This document shows, piece after piece, positions 7,198 to 16,338 of a stretch of DNA of 17,257 nt. Both the position numbers and the translations under genes were made by a program. The stretch's first letter is position 1; every line of letters starts with the position of its first letter. The notes beneath the pieces were generated by a model. The model was not told where the DNA came from. It did no database searches and saw nothing but the letters and a program-made list of their open reading frames with translations. Source of the stretch: Spirochaetota bacterium (GTDB lineage: Bacteria; Spirochaetota; Leptospiria; Turneriellales; Turneriellaceae); NCBI GenBank assembly GCA_029561505.1, contig JAKQXK010000009.1, positions 1 to 17,257 of the forward strand, in the 5' to 3' direction.

Positions 7198-7225
7198 CGC
7201 TACAGGGCGGCCACTGCCCAAAAAA

Positions 7226-7241
7226 TTAACCAAACGGTTAA
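7226..7241. promoter_or_regulatory. Palindromic operator upstream of RND pump (TetR-type)
   Basis: TTAACC-AAAC-GGTTAA is a 16-bp inverted repeat with two perfect 6-bp arms, centred about 50 bases before the pump start. Read towards the pump gene (minus strand), this site plus the following T-run (7241 down to 7220) matches the site before tetR at 21 of 22 positions. The single difference is in the central spacer. Size and symmetry suit a TetR-family dimer, so the TetR protein at 16384-17145 is the likely ligand. Confidence 0.75.
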
Positions 7242-7277
7242 ACGTACGGACCTGACGGCCTGCACGATATCAACTCC

Positions 7278-7302
7278 TCAAGGGGTGGTTCGCACCCCTT
7301 GA
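7278..7302 (-). terminator. Hairpin after the LysM–FecR gene
   Basis: A perfect 10-bp stem, TCAAGGGGTG with CACCCCTTGA, closes a 5-base loop. It begins 8 bases after the stop of the LysM–FecR gene and lies before the RND operator. It probably separates that transcript from the pump unit. There is no T-run on either strand, so it may be a weak or factor-assisted terminator or only an RNA-stabilising stem. Confidence 0.5.
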
Positions 7303-7309
7303 ATAGTTC

Positions 7310-8080
7310 TCAAATATCAGAAGCAGAAATTTCGGGAGGTTTTGGCAGGGCAAATGGCTTCATGGGCGGCTTGCCCTTTTCGACGAACGTGCCCATGCCT
7401 TGAGGTACCTGTACCGTCACCTTTTGAGCTGAGACATCCACCTGGCCTTCATGGCATGCGAGACCAGACTCTTTATCAGAAGCGCTTAATTCAAATACCG
7501 TACCTCGCACCGCCGCAACCGCTGCCGGGGTGCGCAACACGAGCTGACCGCCCGTTTTTTTCATGCTTTCAACCTGGGCCTGAAGCCGGCCCTGCTGCAG
7601 AGTGAAAATTGTCTCTTTGGCGTTCTTGTCGACCTTATTGACGATGATATAACTTTCGGGCTGCAGGCGTAGAATCGTCATGTTGCTGAGCTGCAGGTGC
7701 ACGCTTGCAAGCGCTCCGGTGCGCACCTGGTCTTCAGCGAACAGGCCGAGCTTTATAAAAACTTCTTTCCAGGTGCTTTCTTGCGCGCGCGCGAACTGGG
7801 CTTTACCTGATTTGAAGATCACAACCGCGGCGGGTTTTTTGCCGAGATTCGCCGGCACCTTCAGCTTCAGGCCTGGCTGAATAAGATTGGGGTTTGCTAT
7901 TTTGTTGTATTTCAAGAGCGCGGGCCATTGGCTAGGGTCTTCAAGGTATTTTTTTGAGATCTTTGAAAGCGTGTCACCGCGCTTAAGTTCGATCACCTGC
8001 AGCTTATCTGCCGCGTCGTCTGCGGCGACCGGGCCGTAACTGAGGACCCCTGCAAATAGAATGGCGTATACGTATTTCAT
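7310..8080 (-). CDS. Exported LysM–FecR domain protein
   Basis: A 256-residue protein with a signal peptide at 1-20 (MKYVYAILFAGVLSYGPVAA, cleavage before DDAAD). A LysM repeat spans about 28-76 (VIELKRGDTLSKISKKY...NPNLIQPGLKLKVP), a module that binds peptidoglycan. A FecR-type domain follows at about 88-225, with the usual VRTGALASVHLQLSN...LRLQPES and LRTPAAVAAVRGTVFEL motifs. The C-terminus is Pro/Lys-rich. A good ribosome-binding site, AAGGGG, lies 6-7 nt before ATG at 8080. Despite the name, free-standing exported FecR-domain proteins are not anti-sigma factors of the FecIR kind, and no sigma-factor gene is nearby. A periplasmic, wall-attached structural or scaffolding role is the most that can be inferred. 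It is divergent from the PAP2 gene. Confidence 0.85.
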   Translation of the reverse strand: MKYVYAILFAGVLSYGPVAADDAADKLQVIELKRGDTLSKISKKYLEDPSQWPALLKYNKIANPNLIQPGLKLKVPANLGKKPAAVVIFKSGKAQFARAQESTWKEVFIKLGLFAEDQVRTGALASVHLQLSNMTILRLQPESYIIVNKVDKNAKETIFTLQQGRLQAQVESMKKTGGQLVLRTPAAVAAVRGTVFELSASDKESGLACHEGQVDVSAQKVTVQVPQGMGTFVEKGKPPMKPFALPKPPEISASDI

Positions 8081-8239
8081 AATTTCCCCTTGAGATCGCG
8101 ACGGTGCTTCACCTGACGCACTGCATCCACCGCTAATGCGTGAGACGCTCTGTAATGCGATTTCGCGACAAAATAAGCGGTGCAGGTGAGTCGGGTTTTT
8201 GGTTTACAGGGTGTAATCGAGGCCAACTGTTCGCGCTCG

Positions 8240-9001
8240 ATGGTTGAGTCTTTTCGGCGTTTGCCGCTGCTCGGGCAGAATTTACTCTTAGGTCTTATGA
8301 CAATGGCTGTCGGTATGCCGATCTATACCGTGCCGAATATTCTCTTTGGTGATCGCCCTGGCATGAGCCTTGCGACTTCAATCGACGATGCGATTCCGTT
8401 TGTCCCTTGGACAATACTGGGTTACGCGCTTGTTTACGTCTTCATTTTTCTACCGGTTTTTACCATCAAACACCGGCCGATTTTCATTCGCATGGTCGCA
8501 GGCTTTCTGCTCTGCAGCGCCATCGCACTGCCGTTTTTTATTTTTATGCCAGTTCGTATGCCGCGCCCTGGTGTACCGACGCAAGAGAGCCTGTTTTACT
8601 GGGGTGTTGCTTTCAACTATGTGCTCGACAAGCCTGTGAATTGTTTTCCCAGCCTGCACGTTGCCAACGCGGTATTTGCCACCGCCTGCTGTGTGAAACT
8701 TTCACCGCGCGTCGGCCTGTGGGGAATCATTGGCTCTGCGTTTATAGCGATTTCGACGACGACGCTGCGCCAACATTTTGTGGCGGATGTCGTAGCCGGA
8801 ACAGCCATCGCGCTCGGTTCATACTTTCTCGTTGTTCACCCAACTATCAAGCGGTATCTCGAAACCCACCCGGTTGAACAGCTGGTATTTCCCGCACGCA
8901 CAGCCCTATGGGTTTTTTACCTTTATCTCATTTTTCTGGGCGTCTGTGGCATGCTCTTTTTTGCCGGGTTGCGCTTTCCACCGATTCTGCCCACAAACTA
9001 G
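8240..9001 (+). CDS. PAP2-superfamily membrane phosphatase / phosphotransferase
   Basis: A 253-residue integral membrane protein with about six hydrophobic helices. It carries PAP2-type catalytic motifs: FPSLH at about 136-140 (the PSxH motif with the first histidine) and LRQHFVADVVAG at about 176-187 (Arg, second His and Asp of the RxxxHxxxD-like motif). PSLH rather than PSGH, and the short LRxHxxxD spacing, resemble the subgroup that includes inositol-phosphoceramide-synthase-like enzymes. Phosphatidate or another lipid phosphate is a likely substrate, but it could be a head-group transferase. The frame also offers GTG starts at 8180 and 8186, adding about 20 residues without membrane character. 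None has a clear ribosome-binding site, so the start is uncertain. The lipoprotein and lipid-kinase genes follow on the same strand. Confidence 0.8.
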   Translation: MVESFRRLPLLGQNLLLGLMTMAVGMPIYTVPNILFGDRPGMSLATSIDDAIPFVPWTILGYALVYVFIFLPVFTIKHRPIFIRMVAGFLLCSAIALPFFIFMPVRMPRPGVPTQESLFYWGVAFNYVLDKPVNCFPSLHVANAVFATACCVKLSPRVGLWGIIGSAFIAISTTTLRQHFVADVVAGTAIALGSYFLVVHPTIKRYLETHPVEQLVFPARTALWVFYLYLIFLGVCGMLFFAGLRFPPILPTN

Positions 9002-9092
9002 CTTCTTCAAACCTACCACTGTGTGCGGCGCACCGTGGTGGCTGCTGATTCTTTATTGACGGATTATCTCAGCCTCACCCTGATCGCCGACT

Positions 9093-15673: not shown

Positions 15674-15722
15674 GGCTGATTTAGGCGTTTTCACGGCGGC
15701 CGTCTACACTTTTTGAGAAAAA

Positions 15723-15932
15723 ATGCTTCAGCCTTCTCGTGCTTTGACCGACCCTCAGACTATGAGGATAGGTGGAGAAATTCTATTACAATCCCAAATG
15801 GTCGAATTACCGGCCGATCTGATGCAGTTGCAGCTGCGTTTCACTGAAAAGATGCTCAAGGCGACTATTGCGCAAAAAGTGCAGCAGCAGGTAAACGCGT
15901 CTACCGCCTCGGCGATTGACGTCATGGCATAA
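15723..15932 (+). CDS. Small helical protein, unknown function
   Basis: A 69-residue protein beginning MLQPSRALTDPQTM, with GAGA about 5-8 nt before the ATG acting as a modest ribosome-binding site. The body (ELPADLMQLQLRFTEKMLKATIAQKVQQQV) is predicted to be an amphipathic helix, ending in a small-residue tail. It has no signal peptide, membrane span or cysteine. It lies 57 bases before rpmA on the same strand, where rplU or the YsxB-like gene would be expected in many genomes, but it resembles neither. Vaguely similar in size and style to short motility-associated proteins of the YjfB kind, but I cannot support that assignment. Confidence 0.55.
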   Translation: MLQPSRALTDPQTMRIGGEILLQSQMVELPADLMQLQLRFTEKMLKATIAQKVQQQVNASTASAIDVMA

Positions 15933-15989
15933 CAGGCCCCAGAAGCCCGTTAACGCTTTACAGGCAGTTTCTCTTTGCAAAATTGACTC

Positions 15990-16250
15990 ATGGCACACAA
16001 GAAAGGTGGCGGTTCATCGAAAAACGGCCGCGATTCCAATTCACAGCGGCTCGGGCTCAAAGCGTCGGGCGGCCAGTTCGTTAAGGCTGGTTCAATTATC
16101 GTACGCCAGCGCGGCACGGTTTTTCACCCAGGCACGAACGTACTGCGCGCCAAAGACGACTCGCTTTTCACAACTGTTCCCGGTGTGGTGAAGTTTGAGC
16201 GCGTAGACAAACACCGCCAGAAGATTTCCGTTTATCCGGTCGCGAGCTAA
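15990..16250 (+). CDS. rpmA: 50S ribosomal protein L27
   Basis: An 86-residue protein with the full L27 pattern. The N-terminus MAHKKGGGSSKNGRDSNSQR reaches towards the peptidyl-transferase centre in the ribosome, and the family signature GSIIVRQRGTVFHPG is at about 34-48. The protein starts directly at MAHKKGG, so the N-terminal extension that Firmicutes must cleave is absent. No clear ribosome-binding site is seen before the ATG. The usual partners rplU (L21) and obg are not adjacent: a small unknown gene precedes it and a terminator plus tetR follow. Identification is certain. Confidence 0.98.
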   Translation: MAHKKGGGSSKNGRDSNSQRLGLKASGGQFVKAGSIIVRQRGTVFHPGTNVLRAKDDSLFTTVPGVVKFERVDKHRQKISVYPVAS

Positions 16251-16265
16251 GCGCCAATAACGGCT

Positions 16266-16300
16266 CATGAAGTGAAGGTCCTTCGGGGCCTTTTTTCATG
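16266..16300 (+). terminator. Intrinsic terminator after rpmA
   Basis: AAGGTCC (16275-16281) and GGGCCTT (16286-16292) form a 7-bp stem (one G-T pair) closed by a stable TTCG tetraloop. A six-T run (16291-16296) follows. CATGAA/TTCATG flanks (16266-16271 and 16295-16300) can lengthen the stem. It cleanly separates rpmA from the tetR promoter. Confidence 0.88.
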
Positions 16301-16314
16301 CCCCAAATGTTGAC

Positions 16315-16334
16315 AATTAACCATTTGGTTAATT
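16315..16334. promoter_or_regulatory. Palindromic operator upstream of tetR
   Basis: A 20-bp perfect inverted repeat: AATTAACCA (16315-16323) and TGGTTAATT (16326-16334) around a 2-base centre. It sits directly before the likely -35 of tetR, about 50 bases before the start codon, as expected for autoregulation. The core TTAACC-N4-GGTTAA recurs before the RND pump at 7226-7241. Confidence 0.8.
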
Positions 16335-16338
16335 TTTT

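Follow-up and report, generated by a model that had tools for sequence, protein, structure and literature searches.

AcrR, MtrR, and EnvR are TetR-family regulators tied to RND efflux, and regulators of the AcrR type are, according to an excerpt of PMC6790063, usually encoded beside their target operons. The same excerpt names acrAB, which is encoded separately, as a further target of EnvR, and TetR regulators with dispersed targets are denoted there 'Type III' (PMC6790063). Here we describe a TetR-family gene (hereinafter tetR) and a gene for an RND permease (hereinafter the pump gene) that lie in a stretch of 17,257 nucleotides (hereinafter the window) from a Spirochaetota bacterium of the family Turneriellaceae (contig JAKQXK010000009.1, positions 1 to 17,257). 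The nearest well-studied relative of this regulator is RutR, which is involved in pyrimidine use in Escherichia coli. A preliminary description of the window proposed that a single operator sequence links the two genes. The present analysis suggests that the palindrome TTAACC-N4-GGTTAA is most probably the operator recognized by the product of tetR (16384–17145), which would repress its own gene together with a regulon of dispersed export and outer-membrane genes; unlike those of AcrR-type regulators, the predicted targets of the window TetR are scattered.

The palindrome and its predicted targets

Upstream of the pump gene, the minus strand reads TTAACCGTTTGGTTAATTTTTT from 7241 to 7220, and upstream of tetR the plus strand reads TTAACCATTTGGTTAATTTTTT at 16317–16338; direct comparison of these 22-mers bears out the agreement at 21 of 22 positions reported previously. 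Among pairs of 22-mers that share a 10-base word, no other in the window reaches 20 identities in either orientation. Only these two sites match TTAACC-N4-GGTTAA at up to two mismatches, both of them exactly, and among the five perfect 6-N4-6 palindromes of the window TTAACC is the sole half-site present twice; at least two matches at up to two mismatches were obtained in 11 of 200 dinucleotide shuffles of the window. The palindrome ends 51 bases before the ATG of tetR (16384) and 41 bases before that of the pump gene (7184), in fair agreement with the distance of about 50 bases given earlier.

The 3.2 Mb draft genome that includes the window (G000) contains seven exact copies of the palindrome and none of the reversed pattern, with 0.06 (first-order Markov model) or 0.14 (base composition) copies expected, as estimated from 78 kb of this genome. 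Rather than being present in many copies at random positions, the outcome to which the preliminary description had drawn attention, six of the seven copies are found at gene starts. The respective genes are tetR; the RND gene of the window; a tolC-like gene whose product contains an OEP domain; a gene for an ABC ATPase, for which LolD and MacB are the nearest models (below the cut-off), with a gene for an FtsX-type permease after it; a LolA-like gene (PF17131); and a TonB-dependent-receptor-like gene (hereinafter receptor-like) with CarboxypepD_reg and Plug domains. None of these six predicted targets matches a pyrimidine-gene family. All six sites have the centre RTTT (or its complement), and their flanks have nothing in common beyond the T-run and, in some, a following GG. 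In the LolA-like and receptor-like genes, the ATG is located inside the operator (AAATGGTTAA) and the proteins begin with MVK. Since exact sites occur at genes of four further contigs and at a distance of 9 kb on its own contig, the window TetR falls, judging by sequence, into Type III, and the predicted regulon would include at least six members. A divergent open reading frame (ORF) for a membrane protein (L002:5360-6103) begins some 34 bases away from the tolC operator, with counterparts beside tolC in G001, G002, G004, and G005, and may be a further target of the same operator.

In the seven genomes of the genus (G000 to G006), there are 33 exact copies of the palindrome and two of the reversed pattern. 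As many as 29 of the 33 precede orthologues of the six genes; another, in G005, is located between a fatty-acid desaturase gene (PF00487) and a divergent ORF of 395 amino acids, one further copy is in G003, and two look like chance occurrences. The exact operator precedes all six tetR orthologues of the genus and all six RND orthologues with an intact start (that of G003 is cut by the contig end), as well as the RND gene of G011, outside the genus; the conservation before pump orthologues for which the preliminary description had called is thus present. The exact site is also found before six of the seven tolC orthologues (one mismatch in the seventh), four of the five ABC orthologues (at least 78% identity), all four LolA-like orthologues, and three of the six receptor-like orthologues, the other three having one mismatch, two mismatches, and no site. 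In G002, an MMPL-type RND gene lies two genes downstream of the LolA-like gene. In G001, the LolA-like gene that follows position 5738 of L063 contains an in-frame TAG despite the exact operator, owing to a sequencing error or to decay.

The flanks of the sites were compared in 47 pairs of tetR, RND, tolC, and ABC promoters with exact sites (so that the arms are identical by selection), leaving out the close G000/G004 pairs. Mean identity is 23–26% over the 40 bases upstream of the site, as in unrelated DNA, and 39–51% over the 40 bases that follow it.

Other elements of the preliminary description require revision. Eleven ORFs, not nine genes, intervene between tetR and the pump gene, and the 9 kb distance carries no general meaning: it is 9.1 kb in G004 but about 135 kb, on a single contig, in G006. 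The shared orientation of the sites holds for the tetR/pump pair and was rejected as a rule, given that the asymmetric centre is opposite in three of the six G000 targets (tolC, LolA-like, and receptor-like). Similarly, most promoters of tetR, RND, and tolC in the genus have a T-run that abuts the operator or is separated from it by one A, a feature that the LolA-like and receptor-like genes lack.

Sites with one mismatch could not be accepted as a wider regulon. When the genus genomes were scanned with TTAACY-N4-RGTTAA at up to one mismatch, the counts were close to those of the reversed control (sites/reversed, each figure meaning at least: G000 16/11, G001 14/16, G002 16/10, G003 7/14, G004 17/22, G005 13/25, G006 36/63), so single sites cannot be trusted unless conserved. 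Of four single one-mismatch sites examined further, those of G001, G002, and G004 (L344:1262, L345:1031, L347:1024) precede one conserved gene without a Pfam match, whose protein contains ELARVAIM.F, whereas the G005 site does not. This gene is a probable seventh member of the predicted regulon.

Recognition helices, operators, and gene order in relatives

The window TetR contains a TetR_N helix-turn-helix domain scoring above the Pfam gathering threshold and has an all-helical two-domain fold in an AlphaFold2 model (mean predicted local distance difference test score 91), to which the nearest solved folds include CecR and RutR. It is predicted to bind a palindromic operator as a dimer, and such a palindrome is kept at its own promoter. 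In an alignment of 21 relatives, the N-K-A-M of the recognition helix is nearly invariant. Named genomes were scanned with the peptide pattern [VAT]NKAM[LI][HY]Y alone, and the best 80 of 270 TetR loci were used; by their record titles, these come from Spirochaetes, Acidobacteria, Deltaproteobacteria, Zixibacteria, and others.

In the region tested (300 bases upstream plus 45), the relaxed pattern TTAACYNNNNRGTTAA is found exactly in 16 and with one mismatch in 38 of these loci, that is, in 54 of 80, whereas dinucleotide shuffles gave 0.3, randomly chosen positions of these loci 0.3, and the reversed pattern 1.0; the Y/R ambiguity was set after viewing 26 of the 80 loci, and the controls used the identical pattern. 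The strict pattern TTAACCNNNNGGTTAA is found in 25 of 80 at up to one mismatch and in 47 of 80 at up to two, against 0.07 and 1.2 expected. With the 15 loci from genomes of the class under study subtracted, 43 of 65 still match the relaxed pattern. In a control set of 48 TetRs of relatives (40 hand-picked among the matches listed, plus 8 further loci), none of the 41 without an NKA[ML] helix matches at up to one mismatch (two match at two mismatches), against four of the seven with this helix (Fisher p = 1.8e-4 within the 48, uncorrected for relatedness). In G013, where the helix is VPKSLVFYYF, tetR is instead preceded by two TTGACC-N4-GGTCAA sites. The alignment places K48 of the window TetR at the position of K52 of RutR, a residue that a passage of PMC10891134 describes as placed to contact a guanine. 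This association between helix and operator is the best evidence that the window TetR itself would read the motif, and together with the conservation in the genus it supports the proposed link between tetR and the pump gene.

The neighborhoods were counted in 50 of the NKAM loci, 16 without a TetR ORF and 15 of this class being left out (one belongs to both groups). In 42 of these, tetR is followed by a codirectional gene, the first such neighbor encoding a channel (OEP) 22 times and an adaptor (HlyD) 16 times; the second encodes an adaptor in 20 of 35 and an ABC ATPase in 12 of 35. On balance, we favor the view that NKAM-type TetRs read one operator, TTAACY-N4-RGTTAR, across phyla, mostly heading channel-adaptor or adaptor-ABC efflux operons, and that in the Turneriella lineage the operon broke up, with the operator spreading with or onto the scattered genes. 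If so, a rule leading from helix to operator would make the regulons of many uncharacterized TetRs readable, and an efflux and envelope-export system would be co-regulated without co-transcription.

Within the family, exact sites precede tolC in G009, G010, and G011 and the RND gene in G011, and sites with one mismatch precede the RND gene of G010 and tetR of G007, G009, and G010; no operator was detected before the RND gene of G011 that encodes 1365 amino acids (best three mismatches). Within the order, the site is exact at tetR of G017 and has one to two mismatches at tetR of G014–G016 and one at the RND genes of G014 and G016. The tetR genes of G008 and G012 have TTGACCAACCGGATAA, with two mismatches. 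The best sites of G018 and G022, in which tolC is the leading gene, lie upstream of tolC (TTAACTAAATAGTTAT and TTAACTAAACAGTTAT) and have three mismatches to the strict pattern and one to TTAACY-N4-RGTTAA.

Most relatives outside the genus have tetR and tolC side by side in a single operon, whereas within it the scattered genes each have an operator copy of their own. The gene order is tetR-tolC-large RND in G008, G012, G013, G015, and G017, tetR-tolC in G014 and G016, and tolC-tetR in G018 and G022; G009 has tetR-large RND with tolC elsewhere, and in G031 and G034 tetR is accompanied by an ORF of 503 amino acids and an RND gene of 1033. Neither tolC nor an RND gene adjoins tetR in G007, G010, G011, and the genus. 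The large RND protein (1370 amino acids in G015) has clear orthologues in G008–G013, G015, and G017; in the genus, G014, and G016, its relatives share only about 25% identity. The window RND is of a second type, which in G010, G011, G014, and G016 is encoded apart from tetR and preceded by a site; that of G018 has a weaker site (two mismatches). In the tetR tree, the genus joins G007 (100/100) and then G010/G011 (93/87, not starred). Under the simplest reading, tolC moved out of an operon with tetR in this lineage and retained the operator, the large RND disappeared, and control of the second RND would have been in trans from early on; the direction of change that we infer is from an operon to scattered genes. 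Two further sites were observed in these genomes: in G009 (L087:4965), an exact operator 2–3 bases before an RND gene of 987 amino acids that follows a distantly related TetR gene, and in G010 (L090:5170), the palindrome TTAACCAGTTGGTTAA three bases after a TACAAT box and before a metallophosphatase gene.

Mode of action and alternative explanations

In 20 of 22 tetR, RND, tolC, and ABC promoters, the best-scored downstream -35 hexamer begins 4–7 bases after the palindrome and is separated by a 17–18 base spacer from a TANNNT box, against 0.7 of 22 expected from shuffles; these promoters are orthologues from seven genomes and not independent, and the scan required the TANNNT box. Of seven LolA-like and receptor-like promoters, six have a predicted -10 box that adjoins the site or overlaps it, the receptor-like gene of G001 being the exception. 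Because of these positions, we infer repression, which would account for both classes of sites, those before the -35 box and those at the start codon.

In the proposed mechanism, each recognition helix (N47-K48-A49-M50) of a TetR dimer would contact one half-site. At tetR, RND, tolC, and ABC, the bound dimer would abut the predicted -35 box on its upstream side, and it would cover the start codon of the LolA-like and receptor-like genes. It would autoregulate tetR through its own operator and repress the genes for the RND permease, the tolC-like channel, the LolD/MacB-like ABC ATPase with the FtsX-type permease, the LolA-like protein, and the TonB-dependent-receptor-like protein. A ligand bound in the C-terminal domain would release TetR from the operator; the target set (a channel, an RND permease, a LolD/MacB-like exporter, and a LolA-like protein, with an MMPL-type RND in G002) prompts the guess of a hydrophobic or envelope-lipid signal.

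Several observations weigh against assigning the palindrome to a repressing TetR. The seventh exact site of G000 (C87) is located inside a patatin-like coding sequence (identified by eye) and has a different centre, and an exact G006 site (C3) lies beside genes outside the regulon. In G006, the ABC orthologue (78% identical) and the receptor-like orthologue both lack a site, and the receptor-like sites of G002 and G005 are degenerate. The tetR promoter of G011 shows no clear site (best four mismatches), and the G003 draft lacks a tetR orthologue yet retains an exact tolC site. No match at up to one mismatch was found for 26 of the 80 NKAM TetRs and three of the seven NKA[ML] TetRs of relatives. 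Finally, the location of the tetR, RND, tolC, and ABC sites upstream of the predicted -35 box also suits an activator.

The same TetR could activate, or act in both ways, at tetR, RND, tolC, and ABC, and repress only where the site covers the start codon, but this appears improbable. The placement of the site just upstream of the -35 box in nearly all promoters fits this scheme, and RutR activates the P1 promoter of carAB from an upstream site according to a passage of PMC6245113, whereas part of PMC10891134 calls it an indirect activator. However, the RutR-DNA complex spans about 30 bp (the same passage of PMC6245113), and a footprint of this size, placed here, would reach the -35 box. The start-codon sites fit repression better, and one protein is expected at both classes of sites. 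Moreover, the promoters are consensus matches, and 3 of the 22 (tetR of G002, RND of G005, and ABC of G000) have a higher-scoring candidate that overlaps the operator or lies upstream of it.

It is still less likely that another DNA-binding protein reads the sites and that tetR is merely one of its targets. Such a protein would explain the tolC site of G003, where no tetR orthologue was detected, but that draft is just 82% complete. An ArsR-type gene of G000 has its own tandem TTAACY/TTAACC site, so that other regulators may use similar sequences; these sites, however, are tandem and have other centres, and the motif precedes 54 of 80 NKAM TetRs over several phyla against 0 of 41 with other helices. 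Upstream of the ArsR-type gene, TTAACY..RGTTAA adjoins TTAACC..GGTGAA in G000 (L006:1822-1853) and G004 (L348:979-1010), with similar pairs, by pattern only, in G001 and G005; the paired palindromes probably serve a different regulator with related letters. An origin by chance, as a repeat element, or as a terminator hairpin, which the palindrome followed by a T-run resembles, is hardly credible given arms of six bases with two G-C pairs only, a conserved position relative to the downstream start codon, arms that are identical while upstream flanks diverge, G000 copies without common flanks beyond the T-run and some GG, and seven copies against 0.06–0.14 expected.

Features of the window and comparison with known systems

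The features of the window are listed in Table 1. The start of the pump gene, MNIAAFSIKRPIF (ATG at 7184), is kept across the genus, and its product qualifies as an AcrB-type RND permease, with ACR_tran (PF00873) at 792.5 bits, above the gathering score. In distant RND orthologues, the matches break between about residues 338 and 402–416 of the pump, a stretch that is poorly alignable in the genus. The neighbors of the pump gene are DinB and FecR/LysM genes, the former possibly cotranscribed with it; no adaptor or channel gene lies beside it, so the locus is not a tripartite RND efflux operon. HlyD_D23 (PF16576), the sole adaptor family searched, has two matches in G000 and three in G004, none of which adjoins an operator site. 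In G011 (99% complete), tolC and RND with operators are found and PF16576 has no match, other adaptor families not having been searched. The tolC-like channel under the same operator on another contig is a possible partner of the window RND.

Table 1. Coordinates of the features of the window discussed in the text.
Feature	Positions	Strand	Basis
Predicted operator before tetR, TTAACCATTTGGTTAA	16317..16332	+	Exact palindrome; exact in 6/6 genus orthologues, one mismatch in sister genus G007
Run of eight T 3' of the tetR operator	16333..16340	+	Sequence; T-run of 3-8 in 6/6 genus tetR promoters
Candidate -35 box of tetR, TTGGTA	16339..16344	+	Consensus match, 17-base spacer; same place in G004
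Candidate -10 box of tetR, TATATT	16362..16367	+	TATATT or TATAAT at spacer 17 in 6/6 genus tetR promoters
tetR: TetR-family regulator, 253 amino acids, recognition helix VNKAMLHYYF	16384..17145	+	PF00440 7.7e-13
Predicted operator before the pump gene, TTAACCGTTTGGTTAA	7226..7241	-	Exact palindrome; exact in 6/6 genus RND orthologues with intact start
Run of six T 3' of the pump operator	7220..7225	-	Sequence; T-run of 5-8 in 6/6 genus RND promoters
Candidate -35 box of the pump gene, TGGGCA	7215..7220	-	TGGGCA in 4/6 genus RND promoters
Candidate -10 box of the pump gene, TATTTT	7192..7197	-	TATTTT at spacer 17 in 5/6 genus RND promoters
Pump gene: RND permease (AcrB/HAE type), 1161 amino acids from conserved ATG	3699..7184	-	PF00873 6.9e-238
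DinB-family gene directly 3' of the pump gene	3156..3695	-	PF05163 2.9e-25; 3-base gap

With respect to the described regulators, the window TetR scores 65.2 bits with the RutR equivalog model (TIGR03613; cut-off 368), 28.6 bits with that of CecR (YbiH; NF008587; cut-off 365), and 36 and 43 bits with the AcrR and MtrR models (cut-offs 271 and 280), lying below all four cut-offs and, in the case of RutR, far below. RutR targets pyrimidine genes, whereas the predicted targets of the window TetR are export genes. The RutR consensus, which we take to be TTGACCA-NN-TGGTCAA, differs from the window motif at the third base of each arm; the rutA-rutR region of strain K-12 contains TGGACTAAACGGTCAA, which by itself is at the level of chance (97 of 200 shuffles gave at least two matches). 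The open-licence literature searched (RutR boxes, Turneriella/Leptospira TetR efflux, dispersed TetR/TolC regulons, and recognition helices) showed, among the titles and abstract openings listed, nothing on this regulon or motif, which is no proof of absence.

A TetR with dispersed targets is a kind of regulator already known; as far as this literature goes, the predicted regulon, the break-up of the operon, and the association of helix and operator across phyla are new. The analysis predicts, from DNA alone, a small regulon with exact operators in the Turneriella/Leptospira lineage, within which a tolC-like channel may pair with an RND permease whose gene is not adjacent. The helix-operator association offers directly testable target predictions for uncharacterized TetRs that mostly precede efflux genes, and compared with the efflux operons that such regulators mostly head, this lineage would exemplify the conversion of an efflux operon into a dispersed regulon.

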